From Branchiostoma floridae (lineage: Eukaryota > Chordata > Leptocardii > Amphioxiformes > Branchiostomatidae): a stretch of DNA of 64,000 nt. A program made the translations under genes and the position numbers. The notes beneath the pieces are model-generated. The model was given only the letters and a program-made list of their open reading frames with translations, made no database searches and was not told the origin of the DNA. Location of the stretch: contig NC_049982.1 in assembly GCF_000003815.2 (NCBI RefSeq), positions 14,347,704-14,411,703 on the forward strand, given 5' to 3'. Positions 12,250-53,300 of the stretch are shown piece by piece. Numbering within the stretch: position 1 is the first letter of the stretch; every line of letters begins with the position of its first letter.

Positions 12250-15200
12250 ATGATCGGTCAGAAGAAGATCTCCTCTTTCTTCAGCCCCCAACAGGCGAAG
12301 AAACGGCCGACAGACGGAGAACAGGGCGGCACCTCTCCAGACGGGAAGGTTTGTTTGTTGGTGTGGGAGGGGGGGCGTATCTCTTAGTTTGAAGTTGGTT
12401 TTGTTCAGGGATTGTGTGGTGATGCTTGAACAATTTTGCATTCATATGTTATTCATCCTTGTCGTGATCACTCCCTTTTAATGGATTTCATCACTGTCAA
12501 ATTTATTCTTCAGACTCAGAGTATGCAGAAAGTCCACATGTGGGTTGTAACCAGTTGCGAGGCATGGAAGGACCTATAAGCCATTTCACAGAAATCAGAA
12601 CGCATGTGTGGCGACAGAAAGTCTATGTTATATGTCAAAGGTAAAGGCCCCGAAAAAAGAGAAACAAAACAATGGTTGAGAGTAGGGCTGGGTATCGGTA
12701 CAGCGTACCGGTACAAAACCGTTTTTTCTTATTGGACCGGTCCAGAAAAACCGGACCTGAAAAAATTAGGTGGACCAGATGTTGGACCGATTAGAATATT
12801 TTATCAGGCATTCATACTTTTTGGCGCTTGCAGGTGGAAGAAAATAACTAGAGTGAAAGTAGAGTAGAGTTTATAGTAATTTCTACCAAGTTTTACAGCA
12901 AATTGTACAGGTGCAGTTAGCGTTGTAGGCCAGTGTAAGTCTAACACTCCATCAAACAGATTTCTTTGTAGTGAAATGGACCATTGGTATGAGTCATACT
13001 GCATCAGGTCCAGGTTTAGGTCCGGACCTGGACCTGATCCTTTGGGACCTGAACCGGACCTGGACCTGATATTTCTGTACCGGTACCCAGCCCTAGTTGA
13101 GAGACTTGAGAGAAGGATTGTTTTCTTTTTTGGGAACTTAACCTTTGACATATTACCTAGAATTCCTGTCACTGCACATGTGTCCTGATCTGTGTAAAAG
13201 GGTTTATTCCCTTGTATATTACATACTAGGCAGGAGGACATAATATATAACATAAAAGTAAATACGTCCTTCCATGCCTAGTTGCATCGGCTGACGTGGA
13301 TAACTGTCCCATGTCATGGAGTAGCCTTTTTTTTGTAAGTCAAGGAGGTTTTTGTTCTAAATTCAGCCATGAGCCTAGAAGAATTTGAGTAGATTTCATG
13401 TCTGATCAAAGAACATATCAACAGAAGCGCTTAGAGAGCTACTTGTGCTAGTATATTGTAGACTTCAGTAATTGTTCCACCTGTGCAGGCCACTCCTGTG
13501 AAAAAACTGAAAGCTGACGACAGTCCAACCTCCCCTCCTACCAACAATGGACTGTCCCCTGAACAGCGTGCTCGGATGGAGGAGAAGAAGAAGGAGGCCC
13601 AGGCGAAGCTGGCGAGCAGGAACTGCCCTGCTGAGATGGGAGAGACGTGGAGGCGGGCACTAGATCAGCAGTTCAGCAAGCCATACTGGCTCAAGGTAAC
13701 AAACACCTTACTGCCCTTTTTGATATTTTGCAACTTGATCTAAGGTTGCATCAGTAAATGTTAATAGTTCTTGTCTCGATACATTTCCAGATATGTGTGG
13801 CCTTTGTTGGTTGCATAACAACAATGATATGTTTTGTTAACATTTTAGGGGACCATTGACCTCAAGATGCACAGTCAAATCAATGAAAGGGCTTATGCAT
13901 ATATAAACATGTTCATACATTCTGGTGCCAATTCTTGTAATGTTGTGTTTTCTTCAGCTGATGTCCTTTGTTCAGTCAGAGCGAGCCAGTCGGACAGTGT
14001 ACCCACCCAGCCAATCAGGTCTTCACTTGGACTCAGATGTGTACCATACAGGAGGTACAGGAATATACATGGAAAATATTGTTAAGGCCTCCTGGAATAT
14101 AGACATACCCCCAGGTGTTATGACTGAAAAAGCTGTCATCAAGCTTGGTCAAAATATCCTGTAATTTTGGAATGGAGGAAAGGAGAAATACCATTTAAAC
14201 TTAGATAATGGCTTGACAAGTTTTAAGTGACCAGTGCTTCATCATCTTTACCATATTGCCATTAGATCAGTGCTCAGTTATGTTTAATGGTTTACATATC
14301 TCTCCCCACTCGCTATCCAGTGTTTCCTCCAACACTGTTAGCTCTCCCCACATGTGCATTTTTGACATCTGTATNNNNNNNNNNNNNNNNNNNNNNNNNN
14401 NNNNNNNNNNNNNNNNNNNNNNNNNNNNNNNNNNNNNNNNNNNNNNNNNNNNNNNNNNNNNNNNNNNNNNNNNNTTTCCTTGTACAGGTAAAAGTGGTAA
14501 TCTTGGGACAGGACCCATACCATGGCCCTGGACAGGCACATGGTATGTACCATAGGAAAGGCCCCGTAACATTAGTCCGCGAAGCTTGACATTGTAACCT
14601 CCAATGTTCCCTTAATTGAGCCAGCTGCAAGCCGTGTCATTTTGTCTTTCTTGTCAAGTTGCTGCCGACATATCCTAGAAGATCAGGAGATGTGTGGAGG
14701 TTGGAGATTCACATGATGATGTAATAAATCTGTGCCTTTTGTTTCCAGGTCTCTGCTTCAGTGTGCAGCGCCCTGTCCCACCTCCACCAAGGTATAGAAC
14801 TTCACACTTCTTTTTTTTCTGTAACAAATCCATAGACAATATCCAGCTGCCATTTCCAACGGTGTATTATAATACAGTGAAACCTGTCTATAGGGGTTAC
14901 TCAAGGGACTGGCCAAATTTGGCCCCTATGGGCAGGTGGCCCCTATAGGCAGTATGGCAAAAAAAGGTACATTTCACCACAAGCAATAAGTGACAAGGCA
15001 TTCAGCTTCCACTGAGTATTTATTGACAATATTATTAAGGTTATACATTTAAACTAAATATGAGTTTAAAACAAACAGTTTAATGAAATACATTTGAATT
15101 ACTACGACTGCTACAGCACTGTAGCTGTTCCCTTATTTCTGTATAGTAAAATGTATGCCAATCATGACATTAACGATTTAGAGAGAAGACATAACGTTAC

Positions 15201-19945: not shown

Positions 19946-22900
19946 ATGTCTCAGGAGGATAGCGAGGAGGAGATCTGGGGGTACAGAAGTCGTTTGAAAC
20001 GCGAACGGCAACATCGACCGGAGCAGGCGGATGGGGAGGGGGGCGCGGACCGGTACCCTCCCCCCTCTCAGGCGAAAGGAAAGGCTCGCGACAGGAAAGC
20101 CACCACTCCCAAAGGGAAAGGTCTGATGGTTGCTATGTAGAGTGTAAAATGTCTAAAGCGCCTGTAGTGTTTACTTAAGTGGTACCTGGCCCTGAAAGAG
20201 GGCGTCTACTGCTGTCTCAGTGTCTGGATGAGTTGTGTAACGTTAATCTCCAAGCAGATGTAGCAGTCGGGCATGTTTGGAGCGTGCCCATTAGATTACA
20301 CTAGTTCGACCGTTACTAGAATTTGCCAGTCCTGTTTGGGATCACTATACAGCAAAGGATATCAAGAAGCTCGAAGCGGTACAGCGTCGTGCCGCCCGTT
20401 GGGTGTGCAATAGGTACCGCCAGACTTCTAGTGTCAGCGAAATGCTCCACGACCTCGAGTGGCCATCACTCCAGGAAAGGCGATGGAAGGCCAGACTTGT
20501 CACCTTCTTTAAGTACCACACGGATGATCTCACTATCAACTGTAAGACAAGCCCTTCAACACAAACTACTAGTAGAAGTTCCCGCTCGACCCATCCTGCG
20601 GCTTACAGGGTCCCCATCAGCAAAACACAGTACAGGCAAAATACTTTCTTCCCACGTACAACTAGGGATTGGAACAACCTCCCAGCTGAGGTAGCTTTGT
20701 CATCAACCCTGCCAGTTTTCAAATCCAAAATTTAAAGTCCCCCTTCGCTTGCGCAGTGGTCTTCTCTGAGTAAGCTATGGCTGCAGAATACTCAACAAGT
20801 TGAGGGTGGCAGCCCTAATGAAAGAAGAAGAAGAAGTGCCCGCACAAACAGAAAAAAACGTATAGACCGCTGATACAATCAAAACAAACCTGACTGCTAT
20901 GTATGCTTTGATATTAAGAGTTGGGAAACCGATACTCTAACAGTTACTGGTGGTAGGCCAAGGGGTTACACATATTCTGTACATGGGATGTCTGCACTCC
21001 TACAATAAGGACATCCCCAGGTGTTAGCTGTTTTGTAATAACAGCAACATTAAGCTGAGAACTAGTGTGTCACAATATAGGATACTTTACCTGAAATGTT
21101 ATGGAATTTGTCTATAGTATTTTATATCTTCAATTTTTGCACATGCTGCATCATAGGAAAAACTACCTCCAAGTCACCAGGCAAGTCTCCGCGGGGCAGG
21201 CAGTCAGGAGATAAGACGACCCCGAAGCGTGTCATCCATGAGGGTTTCTGCCCAAACTGCCAGATGCCATTCAGCCTCCTATTGGTCCAGTCTCCACGCT
21301 GGCACGTGGCTGAGTGCATGGAGCAACCCATCCAGGCAGAAGGGGGTAAGTAGTAGGACTTAAAATTTCAGAACTATCTTTTCTTAATTTCTTAGTTCAG
21401 GTAAAAATGGATGAACAGATACAGTTTGTTGCTCAAGTGGGTTCTATTCTTTAGACTACAATGTCTCTTTAAGGCTACAAGAAGGGATAAAGAACCTTTA
21501 ACATACTGTACATCTCCTTTCTTAAATCCTTACCAGAATGCCCTGCAGGCCTGTCCTGTGACTGCACCATCCCCTCCCACTACAGGAGGTTCCAGCACAC
21601 CCTGCTGGCAATGGGGAGGGCGGGGCTGCCAGACACTGACCTGCAGGACGCTCACCTGATGCCCTCGCAGGGTAAGCAGCGTGCGTTGAGCAGTTTATCA
21701 TAACTGACAGGTTTCTTGTAAATGGATCAGCTAATCTAAGATTTTGTTACCTCCTAGCAGCATGATTAAAAGACTACCCATGGCCACATTATAGCTAGAT
21801 TGACCATGACAATGTAATGTCATTTAGACTGCATTTACCATACTAAGATGGCCCTTGAAGTAAAGTGAGAAAGTAAGTATGGCCTTTTATAGAATATCTA
21901 ATGTATTTTGTGTGTTATATTTGACACACAGGAGATGAAGACCATGACAGCAAAGACACTGCCACATCATCTGTCACCAGTGTCTGTATGGAACAGGGGG
22001 GTGGAAGGAAAAGGGAGCTCTCAGTCAACTCTGTGGAGGAAGTTCCTTCTCTGAAGCGTATGAAAAAAAGGCAGTATTTCAGAAGCAGAAGTTGCTCGAA
22101 CACTTTCTCAAGACGAACCAAGAAAAGGAGCGTTTTTCTTCAACAAGGCCAGAGTCTCGTCATCAGAAGGTTTGGCTGCCAAAGAGAAAGGGAAGACATC
22201 AAGGGCACCATCATCAAAGCAGGGTGTTAGTGAAGTGAAGTCTAGACATTTTCAAGTGTCAGTCAATTCGGGTTCAAATCACACAAAACCAGAGGATCAA
22301 ACAATCCCCAAACTGCCAAACATGTCAAAGAAATGTTTGGGTATGAGGAGACAAATGTCTGAAGACAAGATAACTGACCAAAGAAAAGTTAGTAGCACAC
22401 AAGGCTGTGAACAAAAGATGGAAGAAACAGAGGAAGCGTTGGAAGAACAGGAGAGTTTAAGTGACATAGACATGTTTGGAGAAGACAGTAGTGAGGATAC
22501 TCCTCAGATAAAGAACCCAGCTAAGTCAAGTCAAGAAGAAAGTGACAGTTGCAGTGATGAAGACATCTTTGCCAGTCAGGATGGTGATGGAGATCCTGTC
22601 AATGAAGAGGAATGTGGAGACAAGAATGATGTACCTGGGTTTGATGTATATTTGGATGACTTGGTACGGGAAATGTCTGACTGGAGAGATGGACAGAGTG
22701 ATGGAGATGATGATGACAAGGAGAAGGAAAAAGAAGATAAGGATTCAGATTATGCTGTAGGAGGCAGCCAAAGCTCTGTGAACAATGTTGTTACAGAAAC
22801 ATCTTCCTTCTCCCAAACCTCCAGTCAAGGAAAGGGTGGAGCTAAGAAACAGTCTAGGATATTCTCCTTTTTCAAACCAGTCTCAGGGAGTACTGTACCA

Positions 22901-31900: not shown

Positions 31901-34900
31901 ACTGGTGGTCAATATGTTGTACCATATGACTGATGGAATCCTCTTCATGCAAATCCAGGATTGTTGCCCGTGACATCGGAGGCTCGGACCCGGAGCGCAT
32001 GGCAGCGCCGCGGGTGGTGGAGTACCTGCAGGAGAAGTTCAAGGACACTGCCATCAAGATGAGGGTGACCTCTGATGCTGCGGAGTTTGAGGAAAATTAC
32101 CCTCTCCTGGCCGCAGTTAACCGCTGTGCCAAAGGTATCGAGTTGACACACCTGTCAAGCAGTCTGTTTCCATTTTTGTTGATTGCAAGTCAATGTCAGA
32201 AGGTTACAGAATCGCCAATTACCTAAAAATCGAAAGTATTTTCTGCCTGAAAATCTTATAACTTTGAATGTGGCTCGAAGACCTGCAAACGGCAGCCAAT
32301 ACCTAAAACTATGCGATGAGTAAGAGAAGACAGGCCGTATTGCTGCCAAAAATTATTTAGAACTTGCAGACTTATTGTCCATTTGATCCTTCTGCTATGT
32401 GGTTGGCTTATGGTACTTGTTTGGGGAACTGTATTATGAAAATACTACAGTAACTGTACAAATGTCTCTGTGACTGAACACTGAAGATTTCAGAACTGTT
32501 GTGTAGCATATTTCTGTTTTTCCCTGATGGATTGGTTGGTGAATATTTTCAGCTGTGTCCCGTCATCACGGGCGACTCATCCACCTGGAGTACACTGGGG
32601 AGGGGGAGGTGGACAAGACCCTGCTGCTGGTGGGCAAGGTAACTACAGTTCCTTATAAAGCACTGCTGTAAGCAATGGAGCCAGTTCCCTGTACCATTTA
32701 CTCTCATCTGGATGTAGTTTTGATGGTAGAAAAAAGCATCTGGATGGCATTTAAGGCAAGCTGAAAGTACTGGAAAGCACACCTTCCTGATACATGTGTG
32801 AAAATCACCTATGCTACATCAGCACTATAGTATGAAATAGAGTGTAATAACATTGCTTTTGGGTACAACCAAACCACCCTATTCCCTGATGATGTTCATA
32901 CTAGTACAAATGTATATGTTTTGTCTGTTCCAGGGTATCACATATGACACAGGTGGTGCAGATATCAAGGCAGGGGGAGTGATGGCGGGCATGCACAGGG
33001 ACAAGTGTGGAGCTGCTGCCGTGGCTGGCTTCTTCCAGGTAACAAGCAAACACATTACAGCTCAGAAATCTCTAAGGGCACCAACATCCTTCTGTGTCTG
33101 AATGAATTGTTATGATGATTAGAGGTTGTTTTGTGCCCAGCTCATTGACAAATAAGACTGGTGGATGAAGTTTGAGAATAGTTTCTGAGTCTTAGTATTT
33201 CATTGTTTTGGTTTGTTTTGCTGGGCAATTAATTATGCATTTCCGTCTACCCCTCCAATATCAAAAGTACCCATGCAGCACCTACATGTAGCGCCATGTG
33301 TTATTTGCTTGTAACAATGTGCTGGTAACATCGCTGCTCTGGGCTACATTTACCAAAGCTTAATGTGACCAACGAGGTATATATAACCTCCTTGATGTGA
33401 CACTACAATGTCAGATGTAGACCTTGACAATAGACTGATGTTTTTTTTAGGTCCTGGATGCGATCCGTCCCAAGAAGCTGCGTGTGCTGGGCATGCTGGC
33501 CATGGTGAGGAACAGTGTGGGGGCAGGTAGGGCACCTGTTTATTTTACTCCAACTCGGGAACACATGTCTTTCTCTGTGTCCTGTTAGCTGACCACCACC
33601 TTGCCTGAGTGTGTGTGGTCATGTTATGTTTTATGTACTGTATTATTCATTAGTCTACCCGCCAGATCTAACTTCTTCTGACAGATCTAGATACAGGCAA
33701 CTGTATGTTACAATGCCTGCAATGGGAACAATGTGCTCTGGGCATTTCATAAAAGTTGTAACAGTGGGGTTCTAGCGCTGCCAAACTGACCACGCCAACA
33801 GCTCTTGAGCTTTTGGTGTTGTGGTTAGCGCGTTGGATTTGTGATCCGGCTGCCCGGGTTCGGCGCGGGTTCGAATCCCGGGAGTCGGGGTGTTGTTTCT
33901 TTCTGTTCTTACTCGCCCCTCCGAATTTCTACAATGGTTCCCACACCGGGAATCGAACCCGGGCCTTGGCGGTGAGAGCGCCAAATCCTAACCACTAGAC
34001 CATATAGTACTGCCTATCGTCCTTGCCCAAACGCACTAGTGCTTTTGTGGCGACGGTGATAGCGTTCGTGATTTGTGTTCTGCCGACCCCGGTTCGATTC
34101 CGGGTAGGGGGCATGTTGTTTCTTTCTGTTCTTACTCGCCCCTCTGAATTTCTACAATGGTTCCCACGCCGGCCCTGTGAGTAATAGGCTAGTATGTGCC
34201 ACACAGGGATGTCGATCTCGGAGATTCGAGGACGAATCTTGAAAAGAAAAGGGGGAGTAGTGTAACAGTGGGGTTCTAGCGCTGCCAAACTGCCCACGCC
34301 AACAGCTCTTGAGCTTTTGGTGTTGTGGTTAGCGCGTTGGATTTGTGATCCGGCTGCCCGGGTTCGGCGCGGGTTCGAATCCCGGGAGTCGGGGTGTTGT
34401 TTCTTTCTGTTCTTACTCGCCCCTCCGAATTTCTACAAAGTATTATAGTGTACAGAATATGGTGTAAAAGTGATAAAATATAAGATTATGTGTTATAAAA
34501 CATCCTGTCACAAAACTAGCCATTCTATTTTTTACTACTCTATTACATAAAGATTTGGGTCTTCTGTGTGTGCCACGTTTAAAACCAGGTTTTTGTGCGT
34601 TTGTATGTCTAATAAAAATGTCTTTATTTCACAGACAGCTATGTGGCAGATGAGCTGATCACGTCTCGTGCGGGGGTTCGTGTCCGTGTGGGGAACACCG
34701 ACGCGGAGGGTCGGATGGTGATGACAGATCCGCTGTGTGAGATGAAGGAACGTGCACTGAAGGAGACCAACCCCGAGCTCTTCACCATAGCAACCCTGAC
34801 GGGCCACGCCATCCGCGCCATGGGACCCAACTACTCTGTACGTCTGTCCAAATAATTGTCATAGATTTGTCGATGGACCATATGCCAGAAATGCTTTTCT

Positions 34901-37697: not shown

Positions 37698-39884
37698 TTA
37701 CGTTGAGCTGCTGCTGATGTATAAAGTCAATGGGTTAATTTCTTCCTCGTACCTGTAGAATGAATCACTGTTAGAGTCCTGAAAACTCAGGTCATATGGC
37801 CGGCTAGATTTTTGAGTTAATCTCATCCGTGACCTTGGAGTTTCCCCTGCCACCATTTCTCTGCCTTCCTCATAGCCCGCTCCTTTCTTGGACCCAGAGT
37901 ATGAACAGCAGCTGTAACGTGACCTTCCTTTCCCTTTTACTGAGAACTCTTGTCTTTGTTTGTGTGTGTCCTTTGTTTTTATCCATTCCATTTTTTCAGC
38001 CAGTTTAGGATTATAGCTGTCTGTCAGCTTGATGAATGGACCCTTTGTTAGGGATACTGAATGTTTTAAGTGTTCCATTTGCTTCCTTTCCTTTTTCACT
38101 AACTTGCCATACACTGTGTTGTATTCACCTGATGTACTGCTGACATACACTCCATCTGGCATATCCTCATCTCTTGCTTTCTTTGATTTCTTTTTCTCTT
38201 CCCAAACTGACAGACCAGTATAGAGGTCTTCCTCAGACACAAAGTCAACGGAGTTGTCACCTTCTCTCTCATGAGGCAAGTATTCAGGACAAGTTTTCTC
38301 ATCCTGAAGTGGATATTCACGACAAGTCTTTTCATTCTCAGGACAAGTATTCTCATCCTGAGGCGAATGTTCAGGACAAGTACTCTCATCCTGAGGTGGA
38401 TATTCAGGACAAGTCTTCTCATCCTGAGGAGTATATTCAGGACAAGTCTTCTTATCCTGAGGTGGATGTTCACGACAAGTCTTTTCATTCTCAGGACAAG
38501 TCTTCTCATCCTGAGGTGTATATTCAGGACAAGTTTTCTCATCCTGAGGTGGATATTCACAAGTCTTCTCATCCTGAGGCAAATGTTCGGGACAAGCCTC
38601 CTCATCAAACACCTTCACACGTCTCCTTAGTTTCGAAGAGATTTTGTCTGTGGTGTTTAATTTTGAACTTGACTTTAATAGATTATCATGTAATAGATTC
38701 AGTACTCTTTTCTTCTTCAATCTTTTCACCTTAGGGGTCTGAGACTGGTCTTCACAAATGTTTCCATCTTTCAGATATTTCGAGGTTTTTCTTTTTTTTA
38801 TGTCACCTCTCTCCAATACAGAGGAAATGTTAAAGTCAACAACCAGTTTGTTGAGTTGTCCTGATACTTCAGGTTCCTTACTTGAGCTTTTTGACTGGAT
38901 CAGTTGTTTTGTATCCTTGTCCCTGTCTGAGATCGATGCCACCATTTTGTTTTCTGTCATTGAATGACCAAAGCTGGTCAGTGATGCCATTTCTGGCTCG
39001 GAACCTCTGAGGTTTGTCCCATCATTATTGTTCAAGTCTGTCTCTGACCCTGTGACATTCATTTGGTCATTATTGTTAAAATCTGATTCGGAAATTTGGA
39101 GCATTATTTTGTCATTATTGCTTAGATCGTCTACCACAGGGGCTTCCATGGGATCAGAATTGCCCTGACAACTGTCTGAAGCATGGTGATCTTGTCCAGT
39201 TTTGAATTCTTTCCTGACTGGCTTTGCTGACCCAACATCTTCAGAGTCTTTCTCAGAGATTTCCGGCAATTTCTTCTTCTGTTGTTTTGCGAAAGTCGAA
39301 CATCGGTAATTCATTATAGGATCATACTCCATGTCTGTTCCACGATATTCAAAAGCCTCTTGATACTTGTTCGCTGCTTGTTCTGGCTGTGTGTCACTCA
39401 TGTGCAAATCAGTGATGGGAGTTGGGCAGTACCCTATGGTTGTGGATGGACATGTGGGGTCATATTCAGAGCTGGGATGTTCCTGAGCCATAACATTGAC
39501 CTCAGCAGCTTGGCGCCTCTTCAGCTCTGCTATGGGAGTTGGCCGGTACTCCAGTGTTCTTACCACACAAGGCATGCTGCTGGGTCGGTTTGTGCGGACA
39601 GTGGAAACAGGTACTCCTCCTGGGTGTGAGGACTCACTCACAGATGGTTCATTAGGCACATAGTTGCCATGGTGATGACCAAGATCCCCCTGCTCTTCTT
39701 TCATTGCATTCTGGACATCTACGATAGACTCGTCGACAATGTCATCAATGATTTTGAGGACTGTTGAGATGTTGTTGTTGTGAGACTGGCATGTAGAGTG
39801 TTCCTGTGCAACATCACTTCCTGAGGGGTTGTTGGTTGATACTGTTTGAGCTAAGATGGAGGGTGGGGTTGGGAGCAGAGACAT
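37698..39884 (-). CDS. Large single-exon protein resembling the N-terminal part of REXO1, with an 11-residue repeat
   Basis: An uninterrupted 728-residue frame. The start is the first ATG, with an in-frame stop two codons upstream. The first ~200 residues repeat the pattern Y-x-PTPI (YRPTPIAEL, YCPTPITDL) and EYDP, including MEYDPIMNY, which resembles the EYDPLSNY region of REXO1 (elongin A-binding protein 1). The middle is acidic, Ser/Asn-rich and probably disordered, with basic KKRK-type nuclear-localisation candidates. About residues 430-540 are ~11 copies of an 11-residue unit, CPEYxPQDEKT. No exonuclease domain, zinc finger or membrane segment is present. The stop codon overlaps a donor-like AC|GTAAAG, so this could be one exon of a larger gene. 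The function is not known; the REXO1 link is moderate. Confidence 0.6.
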   Translation of the reverse strand: MSLLPTPPSILAQTVSTNNPSGSDVAQEHSTCQSHNNNISTVLKIIDDIVDESIVDVQNAMKEEQGDLGHHHGNYVPNEPSVSESSHPGGVPVSTVRTNRPSSMPCVVRTLEYRPTPIAELKRRQAAEVNVMAQEHPSSEYDPTCPSTTIGYCPTPITDLHMSDTQPEQAANKYQEAFEYRGTDMEYDPIMNYRCSTFAKQQKKKLPEISEKDSEDVGSAKPVRKEFKTGQDHHASDSCQGNSDPMEAPVVDDLSNNDKIMLQISESDFNNNDQMNVTGSETDLNNNDGTNLRGSEPEMASLTSFGHSMTENKMVASISDRDKDTKQLIQSKSSSKEPEVSGQLNKLVVDFNISSVLERGDIKKRKTSKYLKDGNICEDQSQTPKVKRLKKKRVLNLLHDNLLKSSSKLNTTDKISSKLRRRVKVFDEEACPEHLPQDEKTCEYPPQDEKTCPEYTPQDEKTCPENEKTCREHPPQDKKTCPEYTPQDEKTCPEYPPQDESTCPEHSPQDENTCPENEKTCREYPLQDEKTCPEYLPHEREGDNSVDFVSEEDLYTGLSVWEEKKKSKKARDEDMPDGVYVSSTSGEYNTVYGKLVKKERKQMEHLKHSVSLTKGPFIKLTDSYNPKLAEKMEWIKTKDTHKQRQEFSVKGKGRSRYSCCSYSGSKKGAGYEEGREMVAGETPRSRMRLTQKSSRPYDLSFQDSNSDSFYRYEEEINPLTLYISSSST
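38273..38605 (-). repeat. 33 bp coding minisatellite
   Basis: About eleven units of 33 bases, some shortened to ~18 bases (CPENEKT), encode the 11-residue CPEYxPQDEKT repeat. Because the unit length is a multiple of three without stops in several frames, it also creates long spurious frames on both strands. Confidence 0.88.
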
Positions 39885-50300: not shown

Positions 50301-53300
50301 AGCTGTCCAACCTGTTGTGCTCTCCCCTACTCCTGCCCTAGTACCCCGGGACAGAGCGAGGAGACCTGCTGATTTTCCTGAGCGGGATGTCGGAGATCAC
50401 GGCGGTGGTGGAGGCTGGCCGGCTGTACGCACAGCAGACCAAGCGCTGGATCGTGCTGCCCCTGCACAGCACACTGTCCATAGAGGAACAGGACAAGGTA
50501 CAGTCAGAGCAGAGGTCTAATTTGTGCTGAATATTTTGTTTGATATATTTTGCACTATAATGATAATACTGATAATATCGGGTGTATTTGCAGCCAGTAG
50601 GTACCCAAATTTGGGTATTGAGGCTGATTTATGTGGTCGAGGCACTTTCGAGTACGGGACCCCCATTTTACATCCCTTTTGAAAGACCATTTCGTGGAAT
50701 TCTTGGCCAGCTACAGCATCTGATTGTCATTGGGTGGTCTCCCATCCAAGAACTATCCGGACTGCACATTGCTTAACTTCCTAGTTCGAGGGATGGGGTG
50801 TGTCCAACATGCGACACGGCCGTGCCTTATGTACATGCAGTACTGACAAAAGGAGGCAGGTGGTGCTGTTATGGTTTTGTTTTTCACTCATAGAAAACAC
50901 TGTGACATTTTAATAAGATGATTTATATTTTTCTTCAGGTGTTTGACATCGCCCCTGAGGGTGTACGGAAGTGCATCGTGTCCACAAACATAGCTGAAAC
51001 CTCCATCACAATCGACGGTGTCAGGTTTATATGTGACTCGGGAAAGGTATGTTTGATACAACCTATAAAACACATACTATATTTTTCTGAGAAAAAGTAG
51101 GATTGTTTTCTGAGAAACAGTAAGATTTTTTTCTGAGAAACAATAGGATCGTTTTCTGAGGAACAGTAGGATCTTCTTTAATCTCAAAATGTCTTCCCCA
51201 GGTGAAGGAGATGAGCTATGACCCAGGCGCTAAGATGCAGCGTCTTCAGGAGTTCTGGATCAGCCGAGCGAGTGCCGAGCAGAGAAAGGGCAGGGCAGGT
51301 ATGAGTGGAACTGCTGCTGCAGTCTAATGTAGGCTGTTGGTGCCATAGGTACAACTGTTAGCGCCGATTATTTGGAGGGATTCCAAGTTGAGTCCTTCTG
51401 GATGTTGTTTTTTGAGCTGACATGATTCCTTGTTTTTGCCTTAGATATTGACGTATATCATAGATGGCTGTACCATCTGTAATATTGTACTTGTGTTGAA
51501 ATGACTGTGAACATAGCTTTAGGTGAATGATTACTATTGACACTTTGCTAGATAATTTTGATGAGTAGAACACATTATGTTATAATTCGTATCCTCTTCT
51601 TGAACACATCTGACAAACTGAGAACTGAGATTTTTCTTTTATCTAAACCAGAAGAAATTTGTACATCCATTTGTACCTTCCCATCTCTACAGGACGGACT
51701 GGCCCAGGTGTCTGTTTCCGTATGTACGACGAGTCAGAGTATGACAACTTCCAGGAGTACGCCACCCCTGAGATCCAGCGTGTGCCCCTGGACTCCACCC
51801 TGCTGCAGATGATATCTATGGGACTTCGCAACCCCAGGAAGTAAGATGTCATTTCAGTTTTTCTGACTCTTGCCACTGCATCCAAGTGCTTTAGCTTGTA
51901 GAACTATCTTGCAGGCCTCTGAATTACCTGCAATTTTTATTTTCAACTTGCAATTTGTAAGATAAAGGTGCCTGGCATTTTATGCCTGAGATGATATTTA
52001 GATTTCACAACATGTGTATGCTACAGTTAGTCTCTCTGTGTCCATTGTCCTGAAATCTTCCTTGATCTTTCAGGTTCCCTTTCATCGAGCCTCCAGCCAT
52101 GTCCAGTATTGAGAACTCTGTGGCTTTTCTGAAGGAGCAGGTATGTGTGAGGAATCACAGGGGTCTTGTGTAGTCTCTACCAGACTGACTACGCTAGCTA
52201 TTATAGTAAGAAGAAATTGCCACTCCAGGGGAGTTTTGCTACCAGAGGAGTTGGTCGGCTGTGCATAATGTACCGAGATACCACAGACCTCCAGAAGGGA
52301 AATATGAACCTAAGCATGGACTGGCTTCTCTGGCCAATTTCCTGATTTTTTTGCCAAATCCTATGATCCCTGCCCCCCATAGAAAGGCCTGGAGGATAGG
52401 CATTGTGGGGAATGGGGTTTTCAGAAAAGAATCAGAGTGATAGATCTGAGTAAACAGCCTTTTTAAGACTTTTAAATCTGATATTTTCTATCCTTTGTAC
52501 TGATTGGCTATCAGAGTGATGTACAGCAATGTTTTGTACTTTGTTGCCCAATCAAAGAACTTGATAGATCATTAAGTGTGTTTGAATTTGCAGGGGGCAC
52601 TGACAGAGGAAGAGACGTTGACTCCCATTGGTCGGATGTTGGCACGGCTACCGGTAGATGTGGTGATTGGCAAGATGCTCATTATGGGAACTGTGTTCCA
52701 TGTGAGTATGATATAACTGGTCTGTAGGACTATTGATAAGGACTGTGACGATGATGATGAGGACTGTTAGTAAACTTAATGTTTACAGGGTTTCAGGCTG
52801 CTTTAAGAGATTTCCGTATCAAGAACATAGAATTATCATTTTCAAGTATACACAGTGATGTTATTTTTGTCAATGGTACCATTGTTTATAACAGAATACT
52901 CAACAGTTACTCTCATAATTCAACCGGATGACATAACACCGCTAGATGAGAAAAAATACATTTAAGTTTTATTTAAGTGATTTAAAGAGATGTACCAATG
53001 CAGCATGAGAAATCATGAGGTATATACACTTAACATATTAGGTGCTCATGATCAAGACAATCTTGAGAAGGTCCCTATGATATTTTTATATTTCAGCCAT
53101 ACCATAGGTATGGTGAAATATATTGTATTCGTAATGTTTCTTTCTTTCTCCTGTCAAATCTTCAAATCGATTCAACTCCGTCGTTCCTGGACCAAATTAC
53201 TTGAAATTTGGCACAAGGGTAGAGTGGGTCAATACCCAGGTGCTTTTTTCTCATTTTTTTCATATCCTCCTTTAAAATGATTTTATTCATGTTTTTTGCA

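Follow-up and report, generated by a model that had tools for sequence, protein, structure and literature searches.

The window, a stretch of 64,000 nucleotides from the lancelet Branchiostoma floridae, contains a two-LTR TRIM of 681 bp (33757-34437), whose direct repeats (33757-33933 and 34261-34437, both on the plus strand) are 177 bp each, differ by a single mismatch, and begin with TGTAAC and end with TCTACA (TG...CA). The extent of the 5' LTR follows from the repeat pair and from the presence of the same LTR at other loci, and the flanking sequence provides a target duplication, AAGT, on either side of the whole unit (33753-33756 and 34438-34441). After the 5' LTR and one further base comes a stretch of at least 15 nt that matches the tRNA-Glu 3' end with its CCA and constitutes a primer-binding site (PBS), and a polypurine tract occupies plus-strand positions 34241-34260, with GAAAAGAAAAGGGGGAGTAG directly 5' of the 3' LTR. 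Only one long frame overlaps the element; it lies on the minus strand and runs from stop to stop over 145 codons. The structure that the first-pass annotation had assigned to this element, with near-identical LTRs, TG...CA ends, duplications, PBS and polypurine tract, is thereby borne out. Elsewhere in the window are a 5S rRNA-like sequence (50708-50827, minus strand; 43.8 bits; gathering score, 38) within an apparent intron, a frame (20295-20735, plus strand) that resembles, by eye, the C-terminal part of a non-LTR reverse transcriptase and has no Pfam match, a tandem repeat (38281-38606) with units of 33, 66, and 153 bp in a 729-codon minus-strand frame, also with no Pfam match, and a run of ~100 N (14217-14555), which the listed frames translate as 34 unknown residues.

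Each LTR carries a tRNA-like promoter block, as had been claimed from the sequence at the outset, consisting of an A box (10/11 by box scoring; LTR position 58) and a B box (11/11; LTR position 112) located 54 nt apart (33814-33824 and 33868-33878 in the 5' LTR; 34318-34328 and 34372-34382 in the 3' LTR; all plus strand). Dinucleotide shuffling of the window LTR yielded such a pair of boxes, 20-90 nt apart, in 8 of 2000 cases. The block scores weakly as a tRNA (best Rfam score 24.3 bits, to the tRNA-Sec model; gathering score, 47), as expected for a promoter remnant. Directly 5' of the A box is a TTTT (33811-33814 and 34315-34318, plus strand) at which Pol III transcription may terminate in the 3' LTR, and 68 of 75 LTRs (eight clusters; loci gathered across related families) have a TTTT at the same place. 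A TTTT near the promoter start could leave the RNA with a short repeat at its ends, comparable to the 18 bp reported for Cassandra, though the TTTT is present in just 7 of 13 LTRs of one family and is therefore only a hint of such a repeat at the RNA ends. Avoidance of TTTT in the presumed transcript was not significant, with 286 of 2000 shuffles also free of TTTT, and the stretch used for that comparison wrongly held one TTTT. Transcription of the window TRIM would probably be by Pol III, starting from the tRNA-like promoter of the 5' LTR; for Helenus, a described group of TRIMs considered below, Pol III transcription is stated not to be validated (PMC10886601).

A search of the genome (513 Mb, 431 contigs) with the LTR returned at least 46 matches from the best 40 of 1264 candidates, so that the counts are lower bounds, and from 30 fetched loci 22 distinct family places were examined. 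The family and its solo copies, both of which the first-pass annotation proposed searching for, were present. A normal interior of ~104 bp (the normal element measures 458 bp) occurs at 14 of the 22 places (three with a truncated 3' LTR and one with a 5' LTR from another family), insertions of primer tRNA occur at three (the window, L002, and L013), solo LTRs at four (L021, L023, L026, and L029), each with its own duplication, and one place is rearranged. Duplications of 4 bp flank the unit at 15 of the 22 loci, most of the others having truncated or altered ends, and at least one complete LTR containing the promoter block is present at all 22, placing the block within the duplicated LTR. Among the loci gathered, 75 LTRs fall into eight clusters, and several related families therefore exist in the one genome. 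One normal pattern for the junction of LTR, PBS, and interior is found at 99 places (≤2 mismatches), at least three of which are the second sites of composite copies. Three LTRs of a sister family at G000:C5:1339631-1340321 (L034-L036) are spaced 270 bp apart and suggest a tandem array; zebrafish Helenus is described as forming tandem arrays (Kojima, PMC10886601).

The initial suggestion that a TRIM with a tRNA-like LTR was not known to have been described does not stand, since tRNA-derived sequence in the LTRs of TRIMs from fungi, animals, and Selaginella has already been named Helenus (TRIMp3; Kojima 2024, PMC10886601); the identification was right in substance and the kind already known. 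The window TRIM shares these defining features of Helenus: it is short and non-coding, each LTR contains an A box and a B box, a PBS matches a tRNA 3' end, and a polypurine tract and 4-bp duplications are present. Helenus in animals is likewise reported to have 4-bp duplications, with Gypsy as its likely helper, and Helenus of bivalves is also primed by tRNA-Glu (PMC10886601). Lancelets are not named in the main text or table of that paper (PMC10886601), and the window TRIM is a new Helenus member in what appears to be a new host group. The parallel with Cassandra extends to a Pol III-type promoter in the LTR of a TRIM; unlike Cassandra, the region 33600-34600 has no 5S match in an Rfam search, and a Cassandra-like 5S element was rejected.

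The window copy exceeds the normal 458-bp element by 223 bp, and its interior was overlooked in the first-pass annotation. After the 5' LTR, the order is an antisense tRNA-Glu, an LTR of a sister family from position 18 onward, a PBS, the normal interior, and the 3' LTR. The tRNA (33935-34005, minus strand) is a copy of the primer tRNA-Glu(CTC), identical over 71 nt, that starts with the CCA (33935-33937) and ends at tRNA nucleotide 5, and the 5' PBS is simply its first part. An antisense tRNA-Glu scores strongly at 33938-34009 (51.2 bits) and is called a gene by ARAGORN. The LTR piece that follows (34006-34156, plus strand) runs from position 18 to the end of the sister LTR, has its own B box, and is identical over 151 nt to locus L032 (C3:28428573; from the best 40 of 874 candidates scored); with the second PBS (TGGTTCCCACGCCGG; 34158-34172, plus strand), this diverged LTR tail makes up 34006-34172. 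The normal 104-bp interior (34157-34260, plus strand) was delimited by comparison with the other family loci. The copied primer tRNA, which the standard scheme of reverse transcription would not be expected to leave in the product, is, with the second LTR tail, the most unusual part of the window copy, and the recurrence of such long copies is the main finding of this analysis. Copies in which the primer tRNA extends past the PBS receive no mention in the consulted text and tables of the Helenus description (PMC10886601).

With tRNA-Glu plus CCA as the query, which favours long tRNA copies, the best 40 of 130 candidates comprised 15 tRNA genes and 25 copies at LTR tails. The CCA is present in all 25 LTR-adjacent copies, ≤8 bases from the LTR tail, and is encoded at none of the 14 tRNA-Glu gene loci examined of the 15 found (13 distinct, as L073 and L088 overlap). 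A 25-nt pattern, composed of the CCA and 22 nt of antisense tRNA-Glu and reaching 7 nt into and past A58, has 35 exact sites genome-wide and 63 with ≤1 mismatch, and the reversed pattern has none. A recognisable LTR end, in some cases much diverged, precedes 34 of the 35 exact sites, and at the remaining one (L110) no LTR was recognised within the 220 nt examined. Nine of the 28 one-mismatch sites were classified, as two genes and seven LTR-linked copies, and the latter were aligned together with the exact sites (42 loci). The copies reach tRNA nucleotide 1 at eight of the 42 loci and nucleotide 16 or further at 35 (including these eight), with the remainder ending at nucleotides 21-23 (three loci) or 37-45 (four loci); L103 is counted by its antisense copy, the alignment having taken its sense copy, and the alignment ends of L013 and L095 are a few bases longer than another reading gives. 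The base opposite A58 is T at all 42 loci, of which 35 had been selected by the exact pattern, and a fairer figure comes from the 28 one-mismatch sites, among which a single one (C17:1770633) has its mismatch at this base, at about the level of chance. Methylated A58 is reported to be misread often by reverse transcriptases (PMC7472051), and the T would therefore fit an unmethylated base. A tRNA-Lys query as a control for another primer gave one site only, too few for a comparison.

Sorting by what follows the tRNA covers part of the 42 loci and reveals a variety of continuations. A stretch of the U5 end and then host DNA follows at seven loci (L061, L065, L069, L070, L107, L109, and L117), an LTR start preceded by AG at two (L074 and L076), and an LTR piece or LTR end and then PBS and interior at four (the window, L002, L062, and L096); at two more (L079 and L104), the sequence passes straight into the PBS or interior of the same element. 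An inverted LTR piece comes after the tRNA copy at L063, L093, and L094, so that the ends are near-palindromic; at L097 a Gypsy interior follows, with an integrase match (Pfam rve, 28.4 bits, E 2e-6) below the cut-off of 32.6; and host DNA or unassigned sequence follows at six loci (L013, L066, L067, L071, L077, and L095). Overlaps at the 11 junctions compared are 0-3 nt, with the acceptor at L109 assumed. At L103 (G000:C6:16096331-16096755), and with it L119, a chimeric LTR-like unit opens precisely at nucleotide 1 of a sense tRNA-Glu, whose T arm is joined to an LTR end; the unit may have captured or renewed a tRNA promoter through template switching onto a tRNA.

Scripted scoring identified a 4-bp duplication at the predicted end of nine of 41 loci (L061, L063, L065, L070, L075, L076, L107, L109, and L117), from 28 ends tested at 16 loci with ~0.1 expected by chance; the altered end of L109 (CTATG) was entered in the list of ends after it had been seen by eye, and the left ends that the script assumed for L069 and L097 were wrong. 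Duplications were also seen by eye at L069 (ACAA), L013 (GATA, after a CA end derived from the tRNA), L094 (ATGT), L002, and the window element, and at L092 (CTTG) only with 10 extra bases allowed. The duplications around several composites imply that these were integrated as cDNA. No duplication was seen at L064, L066, L067, L071, L077, and L096, and some composites may therefore stem from, or have been altered by, repair after insertion; at L067 and L077 the first seven LTR bases are missing. At L096 (G000:C6:18320180-18320760), another LTR is interrupted by an LTR-tRNA piece, with neither target duplication nor loss, and this is therefore not an ordinary integrase insertion.

Copied primer is not restricted to the TRIMs, as at least two non-Helenus kinds of LTR also carry it, a Gypsy family (L069, L093, L097, and L118) and L075. 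The Gypsy LTR (511 bp at L069) starts with TGTAAC and ends with GTTTCA, and pairs of it stand 7.8-7.9 kb apart at three places; one pair encloses a 400-codon open frame with reverse transcriptase and RNase H (Pfam), which also matches a viral RNA polymerase family exactly at the cut-off, taken as a cross-match. The Gypsy PBS is TGGTTCCCACACCG (L098) and its polypurine tract ends in GGGGGAGGTAG before TGTAAC, compared to GGGGGAGTAG for the TRIM, so that primer, LTR end letters, and a similar tract are held in common. The interpretation of a G/A difference in the PBS as a wobble pair was dropped, since L093, L097, and L118 show a second form of tRNA-Glu that fits the G. The Gypsy family is a candidate helper that would move the window TRIM. 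Read-through into the primer would be due to the replication machinery or the tRNA, rather than to the TRIM alone, because Gypsy copies carry it as well.

Collectively, the window element is quite probably a Helenus-type TRIM that would be driven by Pol III, primed by tRNA-Glu, and mobilised by Gypsy, with a reverse transcriptase that overruns A58 of the primer and an overlong product that is rescued by switching or integration. The putative order of events would be that tRNA-Glu primes the TRIM RNA, which Gypsy proteins reverse-transcribe and integrate; that in plus-strand strong-stop synthesis the reverse transcriptase often passes an A58 that is unmethylated or ignored, the stop being absent or leaky; and that the overlong LTR-tRNA product, unfit for the normal second strand transfer, either switches to an LTR, a PBS, an interior, or an inverted LTR start, or integrates with a tRNA-derived end. 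The window copy would then record synthesis through the LTR and primer tRNA, a switch to the LTR of a second family, and continuation through PBS, interior, and 3' LTR. According to a review, m1A58 is where plus-strand strong-stop synthesis normally stops; on an unmodified tRNA, copying goes on to the tRNA 5' end, and such full-length primer copies cannot serve the second transfer (PMC13191261). Primers known to bear m1A58 are given as Pro, Trp, Lys3, Gln, His, Asn, Arg, and Ser, and m1A58 is reported to be low on the tRNA-Glu(UUC) packaged in SARS-CoV-2 particles (PMC13191261). A primer tRNA-Glu without the A58 methyl is plausible. Human tRNA-Glu(CUC) is listed with m1A58, lowered in COVID-19 swabs (PMC13191261), so tRNA-Glu can be methylated at A58 in mammals at some level, and because most family copies have the normal junction, the normal stop or transfer does work. 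It may tentatively be proposed that germline tRNA-Glu entirely or largely lacks the A58 methyl, that a Gypsy-type reverse transcriptase regularly runs off the end of the primer, and that LTR-tRNA DNA is kept as a fossil intermediate.

Other origins for these structures fit the observations less well. The most serious would have the composites built within the chromosome by nested insertion or recombination, with the tRNA entering only once or twice, and would account for the joining of two LTR families in the window copy and for the LTR at L096 that is split by an LTR-tRNA piece with no duplication. It is improbable given that there is one outer duplication and that junction overlaps are so short (0-3 nt, including the junction with the assumed acceptor), and no second insertion has to be assumed for composites with short LTR tails and duplications. 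Descent of all tRNA-bearing copies, as a subfamily, from a single ancestral capture could explain why AG comes directly after the tRNA in the window copy and in L074 and L076 alike, but loci vary both in the end point in the tRNA and in the sequence that follows, and the copy is found in several LTR families, among them Gypsy, making such descent very improbable.

Retrotransposons of yeast and Dictyostelium are known to target tRNA genes (PMC5006619), and the tRNA could in principle be a target-site neighbour of elements that integrated beside tRNA-Glu genes. This is scarcely credible where the copies carry a CCA that the gene loci examined do not encode, where the tRNA begins exactly at the PBS, and where, at L061, L065, L070, L117, and other loci, the duplications enclose it together with the LTR and the LTR tail on its two sides; the CCA and the duplications outside the tRNA rule out such targeting. 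Least likely, to the point of being negligible, is that the two direct repeats of the window element are independent SINE insertions. They do contain tRNA-like boxes, as SINEs do, but the unit of LTR, interior, and LTR recurs at many loci with one outer duplication, the four solo LTRs are themselves flanked by duplications, and the window element has a single outer AAGT with separate duplications for each repeat absent. The SINE pair is thus ruled out and the original assignment to an LTR element upheld.

Both overlong strong-stop DNA and template switching have been described in other settings, and the reading preferred here, of primer read-through and rescue, has several counterparts. Copying to the tRNA 5' end resembles the full-length strong-stop DNA that HIV-1 makes on unmodified primer (PMC13191261), but that product is an experimental dead end, whereas many of the lancelet copies were integrated and kept in the germline. 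Similarly, primer tRNA sequence lies beside the U5 end at HIV-1 2-LTR circle junctions (PMC5618025); those circles are unintegrated, in contrast to the chromosomal lancelet copies with target duplications. Ty1 and Ty3, the latter from the same superfamily as the candidate helper (Metaviridae/Gypsy), are said to inherit the PBS strictly with the primer uncopied (PMC7472051), while the lancelet progeny DNA holds primer tRNA. Repeated genomic integration of overlong strong-stop DNA was not found in the open-licence literature searched.

In the lancelet genome, some predicted tRNA genes are the debris of mobile elements, as with the antisense tRNA of the window, and this genome is added to the hosts of TRIMs with tRNA promoters. 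The copies run counter to the view, derived from Ty3 of yeast, that elements of the Gypsy group inherit the PBS without copying the primer. If the tentative proposal of a germline tRNA-Glu lacking the A58 methyl were true, the process would give rise to new tRNA copies that bear a CCA, and LTRs could acquire tRNA promoters in this way, as L103 suggests. Dozens of loci in this genome would display the outcome of a failed stop in primer copying and the rescue of the failed products, and would offer a naturally occurring system in which to study how tRNA modification affects retrotransposition.
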